Source: Phaeospirillum sp.
GTDB taxonomy: Bacteria; Pseudomonadota; Alphaproteobacteria; Rhodospirillales; Magnetospirillaceae
Assembly: GCA_030651575.1 (NCBI GenBank)
Contig: JAUSFB010000030.1
Location: 124,001-188,000 of the forward strand
Direction: 5' to 3'
Length of the DNA stretch: 64,000 bases
Shown here: positions 9,650-59,225 of the stretch, one piece after another
Layout of the letters: every line of letters begins with the position of its first letter
Position numbering within the stretch: position 1 is the first letter of the stretch
Translations under genes and position numbers: made by a program
Notes under the pieces: model-generated
What the model was told of the DNA's origin: nothing
The model's database searches: none
What the model saw: the letters and a program-made list of their open reading frames with translations, nothing else

Positions 9650-10189
9650 TCATTTCCCCAGCAGTGTCTTGAGCATACGTTCGAACCGCGCCCCGGCGAG
9701 GTGGACGTTGTCGAGGACGTTGAGGTCGAGTTCGCCGTCCAGTTCGGTATCCTCGTCCAGGCTTGCGCCCTTGTCGCCATAGCCCAGACGCTGGACGGTG
9801 CCGCGCAGGCGGTCGGACAAGAAAGTGGCGATGGCCTTGTAGAAACGGGCCGAGAAACCGATGTCGCTTTCCAGCCGAGCGGTCAGGGTGGCGCGGGGGA
9901 TGCGCAGCACCAGGCAGTCGCTTTCGGCGGTGATGGAAGCCGATGGCGGGCGGGAGTCCACCAGCGACATCTCGCCCATGATCTCGCCCGAGGACAGGGT
10001 CGCGACAGTGCCGATACCTTTCAGCGACACCGCCATCTTGCCGTCCAGCAGGATGAACATGGAATCGATGGCGCGGCCTTCCTCGATCAGCGCCTTGCCA
10101 GCCGGAACCCGATCGCGGCTTCCGGCGTGCGACAGCCATTCCACATCGTCGTCGCTGAGTTGCCCCAGAATGAACAGCACTTTGCGCAT
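9650..10189 (-). CDS. cyclic-nucleotide-binding domain protein of the export cluster
   Basis: 179 residues. Residues about 10-120 form a cNMP-binding (Crp-like) beta roll: VPAGKALIEEGRAIDSMFIL, LDGKMAVS, LSSGEIMGEMSLVDSRPPSA, where GEMSL...RPPSA matches the phosphate-binding cassette. The C-terminal 60 residues are a helix and an acidic tail with no DNA-binding helix-turn-helix, so it is not a Crp-type transcription factor. It is the last gene of the leftward exporter operon, 20 bases after the second ABC transporter, which itself has a related N-terminal domain. I infer a regulatory or assembly subunit of the exporter; ligand binding is not shown. Confidence 0.75.
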   Translation of the reverse strand: MRKVLFILGQLSDDDVEWLSHAGSRDRVPAGKALIEEGRAIDSMFILLDGKMAVSLKGIGTVATLSSGEIMGEMSLVDSRPPSASITAESDCLVLRIPRATLTARLESDIGFSARFYKAIATFLSDRLRGTVQRLGYGDKGASLDEDTELDGELDLNVLDNVHLAGARFERMLKTLLGK

Positions 10190-10209
10190 GGTCTTACTCC
10201 CCTCGTGTC

Positions 10210-13149
10210 TCAGGTGAGCTGGCGTCGGGCCAACTCGCAGAACATTCCATTCTTGGCCATCAACTCATCATAGGTTCCGGCCTCGGCGACGCGGCCCTCG
10301 TTCAGCACGTAGATGCGGTCGGAATCCTTCACCGTGCTGAGACGATGGGCGATGGCGATACGGGTGACCGACAGCTTGGACAGGCTTTCGGTGACGATGG
10401 CTTGGGTGCGGTTGTCGAGCGCGCTGGTGGCCTCGTCGAACAGCAACAACCTGGGCTTAGCCACCACTGCACGAGCGATCAGCATGCGCTGCACCTGCCC
10501 GCCCGACAATGCCGCCGAGCCCTCGGTCAACATGGTGTGCATGCCCATGGGCATGGCGCGGATGTCATCTTCCAGTCCGGCCATGCGGGCGGCTTCCCAG
10601 GCATCATCGACGGTGGCGTCGGCGGCGCCCTTGATGTTCTCGTAGATGGAACCGGGCATGACCCGGCCCGATTGCAGCACCACCCCGATCTGGCGCCGTA
10701 CCGCCTGGACATCCAGGGTGCGCAGGTCGTGGCCGTCGAGGAAAATGCCGCCCGCCTCGGGTCGTTCGAACCCCAGCAGCAGCTTCATCAGGGTCGACTT
10801 GCCGCACCCGGATGGCCCGACCAGGGCGATGAACTGTCCCGGGCGCACCTGGAGCGTCAGGCCGTTCAGCACCCTTGGGCTTTGACTGTCGTAGCGGAAG
10901 AACACGCTGTTGACCTCGATATCGCCGGTCAGACGACCGGGATCCTCCTTGGTGGCATCCACCTCGGGAATGGCCGACAGCAGCGGTTTGACGCGGTCGA
11001 TCATGGGCTTGACGTTGAAGCACTGAATCACCGCCCGCGAGACCTGGGTCAGCGAACCCATGAACATGGTGAAGGCGGAGACGAAGGCCAGGAACTGTCC
11101 GGTCTCCAGCTTGCTTCCCGCCGCCATGCTGACCACCAGGAACACCACAGCCAGCGAGATGATGTCCCAGCCGGCCATAAAAGTGGCGTGCAAATTGGCG
11201 ATGCGGCGGCTTTTGGCCGAGCGGGTGCGCAACTCGGCGAAATTCTTGCCCCACAGCACGAAGGCGCGGTCCTCGGCGCCGGCCATGCGCAGCTTCTGGA
11301 TGCTGGCGATCAGTTGCAGCACCAGACTGACAATATTACCGGACAGAGCTTCGCCCTCGAACAGGGTCTGGAGCTGCTTGGCTCCCACCCACACCGAAAC
11401 TCCCAACATCACCGCCAGCAGCAGCAGTGCCACCAGTGACGCCATGGGCTGATAGTAGAACAGCAGCCCGAAGCTGAAGATGGAGAACACCCCGGCCAGG
11501 AAGGACGACAGCACCAGTCCGGTCATGGCCTTGCGCACCGCCTCCACCGTCAGGGTGCGCTGGGCGAGGTCGCCGGTGGAATAGGCTGAGAAGAAGCTGG
11601 ACGGCAGCCGCAGCAACCGGTCGATCACCCCCGCCTGAAGCTGCCCGGCGATGCGGCCCTCGATGCGCAGCAAGGCAATATCGCCGGTGATCTTGAAGAT
11701 GGTGGTCGCCGCCGCCGCCATCACCAGGGCAAGGCCGACCTGGAGCAACTGGCTGGTGTGGTGGCCGGGAATGATGCTCTGAAACACCGAGGCGGTGGCA
11801 ATGGGCAGCATCATGCCCATGACGCCCCCCAGGGCTCCGGCCAGCAGCGCCACCACGATGTCGCGCTTCTGGTGCCTGAGGCCCAGCCGCAGCAGATCCA
11901 TGGCGCTGACCGGCCCATCGGGCAGCGGGGCGTAAAAACTCCAGGCCATGGGCGACAACGACTCGGCTTGGGCGACGCCGAGATCGTATTCCATGGCCTT
12001 GACCGGGTCATGGACGCGGTAGCCCCCCTTGGAGGTGGGAACCAGCGCCAGGGGCCGGTCGTCATCGCCGGCGAAGCCCACCAGCGGCCCCAGATCCTGG
12101 AGCCACCAGTCACCGCGCAAGGCCACCTGACGGGCGCGAATGCGGGCGGCCCGGGCCACCTCCTCCACATTCAGTGGGCGATCGTCGCCGCGCCGCCGGA
12201 TCAGTTGCGGCGACTGCTCGATGATGATGCCCAGCGGCTTGCAGGCGATGGCTATGGCCACCGCCAGGGCGCCGTCGGGGCTGTCTCCGCTCTGTCTTTC
12301 GGTGGTGACGCCCACCAGTCGTGCGAAACGGTTGAAAGTGGTTCCCAGGGCATCGGCGACCTTGCTGGCCCGCTTTTGCATCCGCCAGCCTTCCAGCTTG
12401 CGCTGGTTCTCCAGACTGAGCCCCAGGCAGCGCAGGAAGGCATCATGAAAGGCCTGGACGTGCAGCCACCAATTGGGGGCCATCACCAAGCCGGGACTGC
12501 CATAGCCGGTGACGTCCAGCCCTTCGACCGGGGCCAGCCATGTGTCGGGCGACAGCGCAATCATGGCGCGGCCTCCCGCAGCCATGTTGTCGATGCCCAT
12601 ATAACGGCCGCTGCCCGCCGTGATATGAGCCCAGACCACTCCCTTGTGGCCGCTGATTGCCGAGCCTTCGGCTGGCTGAGCTCTACCGGCGGGGGCCAGC
12701 GGCATGGTCAGGGATGAGCGCGGCGCGAAGTTACGCGACAGGCCGGCGCCGATTCCCTCGATCCAGCGATCCAGCAGCCAGGCCAGCGGCGTCTGCACCG
12801 TCGCCGATACCGGAGAGGCCCCCAGGATGGCGGGGTCGATGGTGACCACGCCCGCACCACGGCTGACCGCCAGCATCTCCACATCGGTGGGGGCGGACTC
12901 TCCCTGGCCCATGCCGATCATCACGCCCGGCCCGATCACCGAGTGCAGATGATGGCGGCGCCCCAGACGGCCCTCGCCGTCCTTCTCCACCGCGAAGACA
13001 TCGATGGTGCCGGTTTCCACCAGCCACAGCCGTCGATCCGGACTCAGCCGGATCACCTCGTTGGCGGGCAGAGCGTCGCGCACCCCCGCCGCCGCCAGGG
13101 CGGCCATGGCGTCTTGCCAGACAGAGCGTGACGGCGTGGCAACGTTCAC
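10210..13149 (-). CDS. NHLM-type ABC transporter 2 with N-terminal cNMP-like domain
   Basis: 979 residues. The N-terminal about 115 residues look like a cyclic-nucleotide-binding fold (VIRLSPDRRLWLVETGTIDVF, SVIGPGVMIGMG). A long linker region to about 420 follows, then a six-helix ABC exporter domain (about 430-720) and an ATPase with Walker A GPSGCGKST, signature LSGGQVQRMLIAR, Walker B LLLFDEATSALD and the switch His in AIAHRLSTV. No C39 peptidase is present. The architecture matches the second ABC protein of NHLM bacteriocin-export systems. It starts 4 bases after the peptidase-ABC stop and is followed by the cNMP protein. Presumably it works as a heteromer or in series with the peptidase ABC; this is family inference. 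Confidence 0.85.
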   Translation of the reverse strand: MNVATPSRSVWQDAMAALAAAGVRDALPANEVIRLSPDRRLWLVETGTIDVFAVEKDGEGRLGRRHHLHSVIGPGVMIGMGQGESAPTDVEMLAVSRGAGVVTIDPAILGASPVSATVQTPLAWLLDRWIEGIGAGLSRNFAPRSSLTMPLAPAGRAQPAEGSAISGHKGVVWAHITAGSGRYMGIDNMAAGGRAMIALSPDTWLAPVEGLDVTGYGSPGLVMAPNWWLHVQAFHDAFLRCLGLSLENQRKLEGWRMQKRASKVADALGTTFNRFARLVGVTTERQSGDSPDGALAVAIAIACKPLGIIIEQSPQLIRRRGDDRPLNVEEVARAARIRARQVALRGDWWLQDLGPLVGFAGDDDRPLALVPTSKGGYRVHDPVKAMEYDLGVAQAESLSPMAWSFYAPLPDGPVSAMDLLRLGLRHQKRDIVVALLAGALGGVMGMMLPIATASVFQSIIPGHHTSQLLQVGLALVMAAAATTIFKITGDIALLRIEGRIAGQLQAGVIDRLLRLPSSFFSAYSTGDLAQRTLTVEAVRKAMTGLVLSSFLAGVFSIFSFGLLFYYQPMASLVALLLLAVMLGVSVWVGAKQLQTLFEGEALSGNIVSLVLQLIASIQKLRMAGAEDRAFVLWGKNFAELRTRSAKSRRIANLHATFMAGWDIISLAVVFLVVSMAAGSKLETGQFLAFVSAFTMFMGSLTQVSRAVIQCFNVKPMIDRVKPLLSAIPEVDATKEDPGRLTGDIEVNSVFFRYDSQSPRVLNGLTLQVRPGQFIALVGPSGCGKSTLMKLLLGFERPEAGGIFLDGHDLRTLDVQAVRRQIGVVLQSGRVMPGSIYENIKGAADATVDDAWEAARMAGLEDDIRAMPMGMHTMLTEGSAALSGGQVQRMLIARAVVAKPRLLLFDEATSALDNRTQAIVTESLSKLSVTRIAIAHRLSTVKDSDRIYVLNEGRVAEAGTYDELMAKNGMFCELARRQLT

Positions 13150-13153
13150 TGCT

Positions 13154-15358
13154 TTAGCTCTCGATCAGGGTCTTGTAGGCGCCGTCGACCAGCTTCATCT
13201 GGTCATGGGTGCCGCGCTGGACGATGCGACCGCGATCCAGGACTAAAATCTCGTCGCAGTCGCGGATGGTGGATAAACGGTGGGCGATGATGATGCAGGT
13301 ACAGCCGCGTCGCCGCAAATTCTCCACCACCTCCAGTTCGGTGGCGGCATCTAGGGCGCTGGTCGCCTCGTCGAGGATCAGGATGGAGGGAAGCGCGGCG
13401 AGGGCGCGGGCGATTTCCACCCGCTGGCGCTGCCCACCGGAGAAGTTGCGACCGCCTTCCGATACATGAGAGTCGTAGCCCTTGGGCCGGGCGGCGATGA
13501 CATCGTGGATGGCTGCGTCCTTGGCGGCACGCACCAGCCGCTCATCGGGGACAGTCTCGTCCCACAGCGACAGATTGTCGCGGATATTGCCCTCGAACAG
13601 GGCGATATCCTGATCGACGATGGCCACCGAGGAGCGGAAGACGTCGCGGGGAATGGCCTGGGGCGATTTGCCGTCGAACAAGATCTCGCCCGACCATGGC
13701 TGATAAAGGCCAGACAACAGCTTTCCCACCGTCGATTTACCCGAGCCGGACCCCCCCACCAGGGCCAACCGCGATCCCGGTTCAAGGGTGATCGAGAAGC
13801 CCTCCACCAATGGAGGATCCAACGGAGAGAACCCAAACACCAGATCGCGCACCTCGATGCGCCCCGATAGACGGGTGTTTTCCGTCGGATGGATAGGTCC
13901 GGCCTCGCGGTCGAACTCGGCGTCGCGCTTGTGGCGCAGCACGTCGTCCAGGCGGTTGATGTTGCCCTCAGCCTCCTGGAGGCTGCCACCCAGCGAGACC
14001 AGGCTTTGGACCGGGGTCTGGAAGTTGACCATCAGCATCTGGAATGCGATCAGCATGCCTACCGACAGAGCGCCGTCCATCACTTCCATGCCACCCACCG
14101 TCAGAATTGCCGCCGAGCCGATGCCGCCGAGCAGCAGCGGCACCGTTGACAGGTACAGCCGGGCGCGGGCCAGTTCCTGCTCGGCAGTCACTACCTTGGC
14201 GTGATAGGCAGCGATGCGCGAGAAGAACAGCGATTCCATGCCGGCGGCCTTGAAGCTGTCGATGATGCCGATGTTCTGGGTGGTGATGCCGGTCAGCTTG
14301 CCACGGTCCAGCATCAGCTTTTGATTGGCATCCGACAGCCGCCGCGAGACCAGCCCCAGGGCGAACAGATTGCCGCAGGCGAAGACGATGCCCAGCAGGG
14401 TCAGCATCACCGAGTATTGCAACATCAGGCTGGCGAAAATCACCATGGTCAGCATGTTGAGAAAGGCCGTGGCCAGATCACCGGAGATCAACTGCGCCAC
14501 CCGGTCGTTCATCTGCACACGGGTGCCGATCTCGCCGCCAAAACGTTGGGAAAAGAACCCCACCGGCAGGCGCAATACATGCCACATAAACTTGGCGGAG
14601 CCCTCCACCGACAGCTTGGTTTGTAGTTTCAGCAGGTGTTCCTGCTGTATCCAGGTGATGACCATGCGCAGGGCCGCGGTGGCCACCATGGCCCCCAGCA
14701 GTGGCCACAGCCAGTCGGTCAGCTTCTGGATCAAATAGTAATCGATGAAGACCCGCGAGAAGGACGGCATCAGCAGCGATGGAATCGACAGGCCGAGACT
14801 GACCAGGATCACGTAGACCAGGGCGGTGCGAACCCCGGGCAAACGGGACTGGAGGCTGGCCAGCGCGCCGGGTTTTTCTCCGCCCTTGACAAAGTCAGGG
14901 CCTGCTTCAAAGGCCAGCGCCACCCCGGTGAAACTTTCATCGAACTCCATACTGGAGACCACGCGGGGTCCTGTTGCAGGATCGTTGAGGAAAACACAGC
15001 CCTCGCCAAAGCCCTCCACGACAATGAAGTGGTTGAAGTTCCAGAACACCACCAGCGGCAAGGGCAGCTTGTGCAGCCCCTCGGGCTCCATCTTGAACCC
15101 CTTGCCCTTCAGGCCGAAATTGCGCGCCGCCTTGACGATGTTGCTGGCCTTGGAGCCGTCACGAGTGACGCCGCAGGCATAGCGCAGATCCTCCAGCGGC
15201 ACGAAGCGGCCGTGATAGCCGAGAATCATGGCGAGACAGGCGGCGCCGCACTCCACCACCTCCATCTGGAGGACCGTGGGCGTGCGGACCCGATGGATCT
15301 CTTTCTTGCCCTTCAACCGACGCAGACATCGCAGAGCGGATGCAATCATCGCATTCAT
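13154..15358 (-). CDS. C39-peptidase ABC transporter (NHLM ABC1-type)
   Basis: 734 residues from the ATG at 15358, which overlaps the HlyD stop as ATGA. The N-terminal C39 peptidase (about 20-150) has oxyanion Gln31, nucleophile Cys37 (EVVECGAACLAMILGYHG), the catalytic His in NFNHFIVVEGF and Asp in FLNDPATGP. This domain cuts substrates after a Gly-Gly leader while exporting them. A transmembrane exporter domain (about 170-450) and an ATPase follow (GGSGSGKST, FSGGQRQRVEIARAL, ILILDEATSALD, IIAHRLST). The likely substrate is the Gly-Gly-leader repeat protein encoded divergently at 16854. All catalytic residues are present, so the enzyme should be active. Confidence 0.92.
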   Translation of the reverse strand: MNAMIASALRCLRRLKGKKEIHRVRTPTVLQMEVVECGAACLAMILGYHGRFVPLEDLRYACGVTRDGSKASNIVKAARNFGLKGKGFKMEPEGLHKLPLPLVVFWNFNHFIVVEGFGEGCVFLNDPATGPRVVSSMEFDESFTGVALAFEAGPDFVKGGEKPGALASLQSRLPGVRTALVYVILVSLGLSIPSLLMPSFSRVFIDYYLIQKLTDWLWPLLGAMVATAALRMVITWIQQEHLLKLQTKLSVEGSAKFMWHVLRLPVGFFSQRFGGEIGTRVQMNDRVAQLISGDLATAFLNMLTMVIFASLMLQYSVMLTLLGIVFACGNLFALGLVSRRLSDANQKLMLDRGKLTGITTQNIGIIDSFKAAGMESLFFSRIAAYHAKVVTAEQELARARLYLSTVPLLLGGIGSAAILTVGGMEVMDGALSVGMLIAFQMLMVNFQTPVQSLVSLGGSLQEAEGNINRLDDVLRHKRDAEFDREAGPIHPTENTRLSGRIEVRDLVFGFSPLDPPLVEGFSITLEPGSRLALVGGSGSGKSTVGKLLSGLYQPWSGEILFDGKSPQAIPRDVFRSSVAIVDQDIALFEGNIRDNLSLWDETVPDERLVRAAKDAAIHDVIAARPKGYDSHVSEGGRNFSGGQRQRVEIARALAALPSILILDEATSALDAATELEVVENLRRRGCTCIIIAHRLSTIRDCDEILVLDRGRIVQRGTHDQMKLVDGAYKTLIES

Positions 15359-16647
15359 CGATCCAAAAGCGCTTCCAGGGGAGGGATGGCCAGACTGATC
15401 AAATGGATCTGGCGTACGGTGATGGTGGAATCCGCCAGGGTGCTGGTGTTGACCTCTGCTTCGGGGCCACGGGACGACGACCACTTGAAGCCGGAGGGCG
15501 TGCCCGGATCTCGCTCCAGTTCCACCAGCACCTCGAACGGGGCACCGCCACCCGACAGGGAGGTGACCAGTTGCTGGTTCTTCAAGGTGCGCATCATGCC
15601 TTCGGAGGTAGAGGGAATTTCCGCCACGGACTTCACATGGCCCATGATGAAGCCGTATTCCTCGCGCTTGACCGTGCTGGGCGCGACCTGTACCGCCATC
15701 CCGGGACGGACCTTCTTGCCGTCGTTGGGATTGACGTAGACCACCGCAAGCAGATCTCCGCCTTTGGTCTGAATGATCCGTTCGTCGCGGGCGGGGAGCA
15801 GGCTGAACAGGGTCTTGCCCTTCTCGACCACCTCGCCCTGGTTGACCTTGAATTCGACGATGTCGCCGCTGTACGGGGTGATCACCGCCGATTGACGGGA
15901 CAGCTTTTCGTTCAGAGCCTCGATCTTGCGGGTGGAGGCGCCGATCAGCATCTCCTTGTCCAGCATCTCCCGCTCCTTCCCGATGGTCAGGGTGGTTTCG
16001 TCCCGCTCAACCTGTTTCAGCTCGTTGGCAACCTTTGACCGTGCTTCGATAGCACTGTTCAGCTCGATCTTGGTGTTGATGTAGCGGTTGCGGTCAATGA
16101 ATTCCTTGGCCAACAATCCGGCTTCGTTGCGCTCGCGTTCCTGTAGCCAGTGGATGCGATCCCCCAGATGCCGCAGAGATTCCTGGATATCCTTTTTCTT
16201 CTGAGCCAGCAGGGCTGTCTGGACCTTGCTGTCGCGGCCCTGGAATTCCACGACCTGGGTTCGCTGCCGGGTCAGTTCGGCCAGTTCCGCCTTGGCGGTC
16301 TCCAACTCCTGACGGACGTCGGCCTGCTCAAGATGGGCTACCACTTGACCGGCGCTCACCCGTTGGCCCGACCGCACCAGCAATTCCGTGATACGGCCAC
16401 CATGCTCGGACGACACCGTCAGCACACCACCGGGGCTGATGAGAATACCCTGGGCGGAAACCTTGACCGGCACGGTCGCAATCACGCTCCAGATCAGGGC
16501 GGTGATAATCAGCACCATCACCGCGCTCATCATCAGCCATGACAGCGGCGAGGTCACCCGCATGACTTGATCGAGTTGTTCCGGCGTGGAAAGACGCTCC
16601 AGGGCGACTTGTCGGAAGATGGCCTGATTACTTGCCATATTGCTCAT
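15355..16647 (-). CDS. HlyD-family periplasmic adaptor of the export cluster
   Basis: 430 residues. One transmembrane helix near residues 35-60 (WLMMSAVMVLIITALIWSVIA), a beta-barrel/lipoyl half (GGRITELLVRSGQRVSAGQVVAHLE), a long coiled-coil hairpin (about 115-260, rich in Glu/Lys/Gln/Leu) and a return lipoyl/barrel (GDIVEFKVNQGEVVEKGKTL). This is the membrane-fusion adaptor that links the inner-membrane transporters to the outer membrane. It is the first gene of the leftward operon and translationally coupled to the peptidase ABC. No TolC homologue is in the window, so a generic outer-membrane channel encoded elsewhere would be needed. A second ATG at 16638 is an alternative start. Confidence 0.88.
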   Translation of the reverse strand: MSNMASNQAIFRQVALERLSTPEQLDQVMRVTSPLSWLMMSAVMVLIITALIWSVIATVPVKVSAQGILISPGGVLTVSSEHGGRITELLVRSGQRVSAGQVVAHLEQADVRQELETAKAELAELTRQRTQVVEFQGRDSKVQTALLAQKKKDIQESLRHLGDRIHWLQERERNEAGLLAKEFIDRNRYINTKIELNSAIEARSKVANELKQVERDETTLTIGKEREMLDKEMLIGASTRKIEALNEKLSRQSAVITPYSGDIVEFKVNQGEVVEKGKTLFSLLPARDERIIQTKGGDLLAVVYVNPNDGKKVRPGMAVQVAPSTVKREEYGFIMGHVKSVAEIPSTSEGMMRTLKNQQLVTSLSGGGAPFEVLVELERDPGTPSGFKWSSSRGPEAEVNTSTLADSTITVRQIHLISLAIPPLEALLDR

Positions 16648-16853
16648 CCGCTAAGTTATCAAAAATTTAAGAAGATTCGGATTGTAACGAGATGTTCCGG
16701 TATGCAAGCATACTTACAGCTTACCCTAAATAGGGCAAGGCTCCATAAATTTAGTACTTGCTGATGTACCAGAATATGCTGCGGCGCATCATGGGCTTGG
16801 CGCGGAACAAACAGAATACGGCATTCACCTTACTTCAGTGGAAGGGCACGGTC
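16648..16853. promoter_or_regulatory. AT-rich divergent promoter region of the repeat-protein and exporter genes
   Basis: 206 bases between divergent genes, markedly AT-rich against its surroundings. It contains a perfect inverted repeat GTATGC-AA-GCATAC at 16700-16713 and an imperfect one centred near 16729 (CTTaCCCT-AAAT-AGGGcAAG, 16720-16739). Either could be an operator shared by both transcription units. GAAGGG at 16841-16846, 7 bases before the ATG at 16854, sets the start of the repeat protein. I could not place -35/-10 boxes with confidence. Confidence 0.5.
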
Positions 16854-17672
16854 ATGACGCAGAATTCGATCAAGACTTCTCTCGGCGAAGAAATTTCCGA
16901 CACCGATCTTGATCTGGTTGTTGGTGGTTCCGGCGATGTGGCCCAGGAGGCGCCGCCGATGGATGCCGCCAATTTCGTGGAAGCGCCGCCGCCGCCCACT
17001 GGAGCCCCACCGCCCGCTGGCGATATGGCCGGCTTCCAGCCGCCTCCGGGTGGCGACTCCAATATGGCTCCGCCGCCCGCCGGCTTCGCGCCGCCGCCCG
17101 CTGGCGATATGGCCGGCTTCCAGCCGCCTCCGGGTGGCGACCCCAACATGGCTCCGCCTCCCGCCGGCTTCGCGCAGCCGCCCGCTGGCGATATGGCCGG
17201 CTTCCAGCCGCCTCCGGGTGGCGATCCCAACATGGCACCGCCGCCCGCCGGCTTCGCGCCACCGCCCACTGGCGACATGGCCGGCTTCCAGCAGCCGCCT
17301 CCGGGTGGCGACCCCAATATGGCTCCGCCGCCCGCCGGCTTCGCGCCGCCGCCTAGTGGCGACATGGCCGGCTTCCAGCCGCCTCCGGGTGGCGACCCCA
17401 ACATGGCTCCGCCTCCCGCCGGCTTCGCGCCACCGCCCGCTGGCGATATGGCCGGCTTCCAGCCGCCCCCGGGTGGCGACCCCAACATGGCTCCGCCTCC
17501 CGCCGGCTTCGCGCCGCCGCCCGCTGGCGACATGGCCGGCTTCCAGCCGCCTCCGGGTGGCGATCCCAACATGGCACCGCCGCCCGCCGGCTTCGCGCCA
17601 CCGCCCGGTGGCGACATGGCCGGCTTCCAGCCGCCTCCGGATGGAGACCCCAACATGGCGCCAAAAGCTTAG
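16854..17672 (+). CDS. double-glycine-leader, proline-rich tandem-repeat secreted protein
   Basis: 272 residues from the ATG with a good ribosome site (an upstream in-frame start would add 32 residues without one). Residues 1-25 are a short leader, MTQNSIKTSLGEEISDTD then LDLVVGG, ending in the Gly24-Gly25 cleavage motif used by C39 peptidase transporters. The body (26-272) is low complexity. After a short spacer come eight repeats of about 28 residues with consensus GFAPPPAGDMAGFQ plus PPPGGDPNMAPPPA. It has no Cys, only a handful of Ser/Thr, two Met and two Phe per full repeat, and many Asp but almost no Lys/Arg, so the product is acidic. No modifying enzyme is adjacent. Predicted role: the exported substrate of the divergent HlyD/ABC cluster. 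Biological function unknown; adhesin, matrix, metal-binding or antagonistic peptide are all speculative. Confidence 0.85.
   Translation: MTQNSIKTSLGEEISDTDLDLVVGGSGDVAQEAPPMDAANFVEAPPPPTGAPPPAGDMAGFQPPPGGDSNMAPPPAGFAPPPAGDMAGFQPPPGGDPNMAPPPAGFAQPPAGDMAGFQPPPGGDPNMAPPPAGFAPPPTGDMAGFQQPPPGGDPNMAPPPAGFAPPPSGDMAGFQPPPGGDPNMAPPPAGFAPPPAGDMAGFQPPPGGDPNMAPPPAGFAPPPAGDMAGFQPPPGGDPNMAPPPAGFAPPPGGDMAGFQPPPDGDPNMAPKA
17001..17669 (+). repeat. eight tandem 84-bp coding repeats
   Basis: In-frame tandem repeats with an 84-base period. The first unit is 81 bases (one residue short), the fourth is 87 (an extra Gln codon), and the last ends in a variant MAPKA. Units differ mostly at silent positions (GAT/GAC, CCT/CCG, GCC/GCG) and at one variable residue (A/T/S/G before GDMAG), a pattern of expansion followed by drift. 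Confidence 0.95.
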
Positions 17673-58983: not shown

Positions 58984-58993
58984 GTTTCAGTGT

Positions 58994-59213
58994 CCCTCAA
59001 TCGCCGGGCGGGCGCATCCGCGCCCTTGGCTACGCGCCACGAGGCGCGCCGGCCCTTGGCCGCAACTCCGAGCCTGCGGCTCGTCGGTCTTTTGTCCCTC
59101 AAACGCCGGGCGGGCGCATCCGCGCCTTTGGCTACGCGCCACGAGGCGCGTCGGCCCTTGGCCGCAACTTCGAGCCTGCGGCTCGTCGGTCTTTTGGCCC
59201 TCAATCGCCGGGT
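58994..59213. repeat. 102-bp tandem extragenic repeat rich in inverted repeats
   Basis: Two full 102-base copies (58994-59095 and 59096-59197) and about 16 bases of a third, lying exactly between chpT and rlmD. The copies differ at only a few bases. Each unit contains CGCGCC-ACGA-GGCGCG, CGAGCC-TGC-GGCTCG and CGGCC-CTT-GGCCG, so the RNA would fold strongly on either strand. A 34-codon frame repeats in phase but its peptide (Arg/Ala-rich) has no start signal, so I do not call it coding. Confidence 0.85.
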
Positions 59214-59225
59214 GGGGGCGTTCGG

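Follow-up and report, generated by a model that had tools for sequence, protein, structure and literature searches.

The closest described systems are the NHLM export sets associated with NHLP and Nif11 precursors (Haft et al. 2010, PMC2887384); the available part of that report ties the three-gene transport set to modified precursors. Among C39 peptidases, the accessible portion of the work on LahT (AMS/PCAT) shows that the last 13 residues of a leader are enough for LahT150, which relies on positions −12, −7, and −4, and that LahT's own substrates combine Nif11-type leaders with diverse core peptides (PMC6363468). HetC of Nostoc is a C39-ABC exporter with a cyclic-nucleotide-binding domain, which, according to the available part of its description, binds ppGpp in vitro and is required for the exporter to work in vivo; the same part gives the substrate as unknown, with no membrane fusion protein gene near (PMC10986499).

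The locus studied here lies in a 64,000-nucleotide stretch of Phaeospirillum sp. DNA (hereafter the window) from a genome assembled into 87 contigs (4.2 Mb). 'Terasakiella sp. PR1', Paramagnetospirillum marisnigri, and P. caucaseum are the named records with the closest matches to ABC2, the second transporter of the locus (80-87% identity). On the reverse strand we identified a leftward run of four genes, encoding a HlyD-type adaptor of 430 aa (15355-16647), the 734-aa C39 peptidase-permease-ATPase ABC1 (13154-15358), the permease/ATPase ABC2, which lacks a peptidase (10210-13149), and a 179-aa cNMP-domain protein of the bacteriocin-type transport-associated family (9650-10189; PF00027, 61 bits). 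The ABC1 start codon (ATG at 15358) overlaps the HlyD stop codon as ATGA and the remaining gaps measure 4 and 20 bases, so the four genes are likely transcribed together. All four products scored above the cut-offs of their NCBIfam models: HlyD with TIGR03794 (340.2 bits, cut-off 156.2), ABC1 with TIGR03796 (1052.9 bits, cut-off 853.3), ABC2 with TIGR03797 (870.4 bits, cut-off 709.4), and the cNMP protein with TIGR03896 (164.6 bits, cut-off 161.05), the last being a narrow pass that covers profile positions 139-316 of 317. The family, domain, and structure comparisons of ABC1 used a start at 15361, one residue longer. The three transport families that mark an NHLM export set are found side by side, and these scores bear out the preliminary description, which had read the run as such a set. 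The window therefore resembles the NHLP/Nif11 systems in its three transport families, its TIGR03896 protein, and its GG leader (below). Unlike those systems, as far as they are described in the available part of the report, it encodes a long Pro-rich repeat protein as cargo, with no modification enzyme recognized nearby (PMC2887384).

The best solved relative of the ABC1 peptidase domain (PF03412) is LahT150 (PDB 6MPZ, E 5e-44), and the Cys/His/Asp residues are kept as C37, H110, and D126, together with Q31. NCBIfam and Pfam searches revealed no second protease in the cassette. An outer-membrane factor is likewise absent from the cassette; elsewhere in the genome, the outer-membrane-factor domain PF02321 gave 15 matches above the cut-off.

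The cNMP-like N-terminus that had been proposed for ABC2 is supported by a fold search, in which the best PDB matches of the predicted fold of residues 1-410 were PKA regulatory subunits (E 7e-7; mean pLDDT of the model, 85.4). Among the best 50 Foldseek matches listed, PKA regulatory subunits and CRP-like proteins had probabilities of 0.97-1.00 but low query TM-scores (0.14-0.22), and we read the region as cNMP-like domains in another arrangement. In a Pfam search at E 1, ABC2 showed no cNMP domain. When its domains were compared by profile with the cNMP proteins encoded at these loci, the first matched weakly (E 0.0017, probability 15.7) and the second gave no useful match (E 0.087), so that the case for cNMP-like domains depends on the fold comparison. 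The secondary structure of residues 285-410, which lie between these domains and the membrane part, suggests a possible degenerate C39-like domain (profile comparison: E 0.018, probability 2.6). HetC and the window both tie a C39-ABC exporter to a cyclic-nucleotide-binding domain. This domain is fused to the peptidase-ABC in HetC, whereas in the window it is found in the second ABC and in a separate protein, and the window set includes HlyD (comparison with the available part of PMC10986499). By analogy with ppGpp binding by HetC and its need for the domain, nucleotide control of the window exporter is a fair guess.

The cargo gene (16854-17672, forward strand) is divergent from HlyD and separated from it by an intergenic region of 206 bp (16648-16853). 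Within this region, three species share an identical block around CATACTTACAGCTTA, from which P. marisnigri departs by two changes (alignment A2, four sequences). The gene is preceded by GGAAGG ahead of its ATG and encodes 272 aa, of which the first 25 (16854-16928) form the leader MTQNSIKTSLGEEISDTDLDLVVGG. This is the divergent leader ending in LDLVVGG that had been noted before. It has Ile at −12, Leu at −7, Val at −4, and Gly at −2 and −1, and fits the 13-residue motif of LahT150, the closest solved C39 relative (available part of PMC6363468). The six other leaders that we compared, five from the same clade and one from locus L167 outside it, have Ile or Leu at −12, Leu at −7, and Val at −4. 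Ile at −12 is not among the LahT150 leader changes in the available part of that report (PMC6363468). With a LahT150-like C39 domain and matching leader positions, the exporter most likely cuts the cargo after Gly25. In contrast to the window cargo, LahT's own substrates carry leaders of the Nif11 type ahead of diverse cores (available part of PMC6363468).

A short leader had been considered unusual for such a system. This does not hold, since candidates with short leaders occur in 25 of 88 loci outside the clade and the window leader fits the minimal motif of LahT150; the shortness is not odd, and short leaders are common beside NHLM sets. In our regular-expression survey of 94 fetched loci (window excluded), whose hits are candidates only, 34 of 117 GG precursor candidates had leaders of at most 40 aa. 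Short-leader candidates, with leaders of about 20-30 aa, also accompany NHLM sets of Streptomyces, Gemmatimonadota, and Paenibacillus; unlike the window cargo, their mature parts are mostly below 65 aa and are not Pro-rich repeats. The stricter DNA pattern D/E-L-D/E-x-V-x-G-G matched the window's own genome ten times (reversed control, 0), and by eye only the match in the cargo was judged to be a leader located at an ORF start.

The predicted mature protein of 247 aa (23.6 kDa as an intact chain) consists of 33% Pro, 17% Ala, 17% Gly, 8% Asp, and 7% Met, with a pI of 4.05; its acidic residues (19 Asp, 2 Glu) outnumber the basic ones (a single Lys, no Arg). It has no Cys, as previously stated, and, from the percentages, about three Ser and two Thr, which leaves little to modify by lanthionine or azole chemistry. 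Proline-rich antimicrobial peptides are cationic and short, and this identity was rejected for a 247-aa chain of the wrong charge. The cargo matched no NCBIfam model at E 1. AlphaFold gave no confident structure (mean pLDDT 54.5), which is weak evidence because a single sequence was used. The mature part begins with a conserved stretch (SGDVAQEAPPMDAANFVEAPPPP..., 16929-17018; alignments A1 and A3); the residues after the cut, DAANFVEAPPPP in the window, are largely kept across loci and least so in the genome G066. The stretch is followed by 84-bp tandem repeats (17010-17659; Tandem Repeats Finder, 7.7 copies, 92% matches) that keep a single frame and encode 28-aa units of Pro, Gly, Ala, Asp, and Met. 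The preliminary description had counted eight repeats of 28 residues. There are indeed eight units beginning with GDMAGFQ, of which six have this length, while one has 29 aa and the last is shortened to 20 aa. Comparison of the seven full units gave 12 substitution types; read in the cargo frame, 8 are synonymous, versus 3.4 expected (P = 0.0035, from 2000 rough simulations). The other five frames performed worse; in the nearest, an antisense frame, five of nine variable codons vary only synonymously, versus seven of ten in the cargo frame. Another tandem repeat, of 102 bp in 2.2 copies, is present at 58991-59216 of the window.

In a tree of ABC2, calculated by a quick method with SH-aLRT values only and no bootstrap, the window falls with six other loci (L119-L122, L158, and L159) in a single clade comprising 7 of 95 rows (support 99), in agreement with the distinct exporter branch suggested earlier. 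Six of the seven loci, window included, have the leader sequence in divergent orientation to HlyD, and leader and junction are kept in three genera (g1, g2, and g5). This pairing across the clade supports the earlier view of the exporter and the repeat protein as a pair. Lack of conservation of the repeat ORF with the transporter would have told against that view, and the comparison of loci gave the opposite outcome, although one copy, that of P. marisnigri (L119, 15781-15984), keeps the leader and junction but has ATA at the start position and no repeats. The exporter genes of P. marisnigri match along nearly their whole length, and its genome contains a second NHLM set. The repeat unit differs from locus to locus, with 28 aa in the window, 21 in PR1, 15 in G017, 10 in G066, and about 9-12 in a fragment from G067, and the sequenced piece of the P. 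caucaseum cargo is Pro-rich with no clear unit. In three of the five relatives with a leader (L120, L121, and L122), the cargo frame runs off the contig end. In G066, a one-contig genome, the cargo was found through its neighborhood (L158); it is divergent from HlyD and has the leader MAPIKETGKTPEEISELDLDLVVGG, PPPPPPGGDM repeats, and a C-terminal region. This region (97 aa searched) was absent from all seven other genomes searched and gave one weak Pfam match below the cut-off (CFSR, E 3e-4). The G067 fragment (L159, 8311-8423) is joined to ABC1 in antisense and the fetched stretch has no HlyD match, suggesting a rearrangement or a misassembly.

Profile A1, built from the first ~65 cargo residues, found the cargo in 4 of 17 genomes of the genus, own genome included, and all four carry ABC2; both ABC2 (at 1e-180) and the cargo are missing from twelve. 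ABC2 is also present in a fifth genome of the genus, G013, where it belongs to a different NHLM branch and is accompanied by a different cargo, a candidate 11-aa peptide. At the same threshold, TIGR03797 was detected in 18 of 55 family genomes, including five in the genus. The A1 profile matched 6 of the 55 family genomes, one of which (G021, E 0.0012) was rejected as its region L171 holds neither cassette homologues nor a leader candidate. In the wider searches it matched 5 of 317 genomes of the order and 1 of 385 of the class, the latter being the window's own, and the cargo N-terminus had no match at E 0.1 in 72,556 plasmid records. The profile missed the clear G066 homologue, so this search is weak, and profile searches with Pro-rich sequence are unreliable. 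Of the 117 candidates from the 94 fetched loci, a list that excludes the window and the L119 copy without a start codon, four combine 80 or more residues after GG with a Pro content of 20% or more. All four belong to this clade (L120, L121, L122, and L158), and no long Pro-rich cargo was found outside it among these candidates.

No modification enzyme was recognized among seven flanking window proteins. The same holds for 18 ORFs out of the 22 listed around the loci of five relatives; these were picked by length, and seven of the 18 had no Pfam match at 1e-5. The statement that none is adjacent is thus upheld for the flanking proteins tested. Among the flank matches listed, the strong one is an ABC-F gene shared by the window and PR1 (94%), and the others are weak (28-43%) and belong to signalling or transposase genes. 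Beyond the ABC-F gene, L121 has a TPR/ATP-grasp protein with no counterpart among the window proteins tested. In G066, integrases, IS91-type and DDE transposases, and a serine recombinase flank the cassette (L158, 365-4372 and 13028-18886), hinting that this cassette may move. Elsewhere in the window's own genome, no classical precursor exceeded the cut-off: the NHLP model TIGR03793 had no match at E 1, and the Nif11 model TIGR03798 had one of 12.9 bits, below the cut-off of 32.3. Judged by these family models, the cargo does not belong among the NHLP or Nif11 precursors.

We consider it probable that the locus encodes a dedicated NHLM-type type I exporter and its own cargo, which is cut after Gly25 and secreted as an unmodified polymer, likely for a matrix or coat. 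In this process, the last 13 leader residues would dock in the C39 groove of ABC1, where C37, H110, and D126 would cut after Gly25. The acidic, disordered 247-aa polymer of Pro, Gly, Ala, Asp, and Met would leave unmodified by way of the two ABC proteins, HlyD, and a channel of the TolC type whose gene lies elsewhere, and the cNMP-like domains of ABC2 together with the separate cNMP protein would probably tune export to a nucleotide signal. The extracellular polymer would most likely be an extended matrix or surface-coat component, given that most of the sequence next to the cleavage site has been retained, whereas the repeats differ from species to species. From composition, repeat turnover, and the adjacent exporter, our best remaining guess is a role in a matrix, a coat, or adhesion.

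The NCBIfam names of the transport families refer to bacteriocin export, and the link to modified precursors drawn in the available part of Haft et al. (PMC2887384) would also fit a bacteriocin- or microcin-like toxin, or a RiPP with its enzyme elsewhere in the genome. This is unlikely for an acidic cargo (pI 4.05) with no Cys and hardly any Ser or Thr, in a genome without Nif11 or NHLP precursors above the cut-off and with no recognized modification gene among the tested neighbours; both a classical bacteriocin and a lanthionine or azole product are disfavoured by the acidity and the missing Cys. Another possibility is that the exporter serves other, unseen short peptides, the repeat protein being a drifting low-complexity passenger or a relic. 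The P. marisnigri copy looks decayed, and candidates beside related exporters are short, with 7 to 32 aa after GG (L118, L123, L160, L162, L163, L165, and L167). Against this, leader and junction are conserved across the three genera, repeat variation is mainly synonymous, and the strict pattern gives no other leader-type ORF in the genome, which leaves a passenger or relic improbable. It is more doubtful still that the chain, once secreted, is processed to short signal peptides derived from the repeats, as the near-identical tandem units and the sister loci with candidate precursors of 11-aa peptides might suggest, for the cassette has no second protease, the units vary in length and sequence between species, and the unit contains no Lys or Arg.

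If the clade exports such an unmodified structural polymer, a GG leader with a C39 exporter would be a natural secretion route for long disordered repeat proteins in Gram-negative cells. More tentatively, a bacteriocin export machine may have been converted in one NHLM clade to the dedicated secretion of a biomaterial, a disordered and unmodified polymer that evolves fast and coats or glues cells; nucleotide-sensing domains in ABC2 and its partner protein would then gate its export. With one exporter and one adjacent substrate, the locus would offer a clean case for what cNMP-like domains sense. NCBIfam labels these transporter families as bacteriocin export, which would mislead for part of the family if the clade exports an unmodified structural polymer. 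No proline-rich or repeat-protein cargo of this transporter set was found in the literature searched, which covered titles and the openings of abstracts, with most subscription journals outside its scope.

Sister NHLM loci in the same family encode candidate GG precursors with a mature part of 11 aa, (K/N)LGAPI(Y/F)KKKP (L123, 1046-1222; L160, 5562-5909; L165, 6286-6519). Alike in three genomes, these peptides are possible exported signal peptides. G064, which represents the closest branch beyond the clade, likewise encodes a divergent GG candidate (L167, 8583-8789), whose 32-aa mature part contains a doubled PKGFEPVTM unit.
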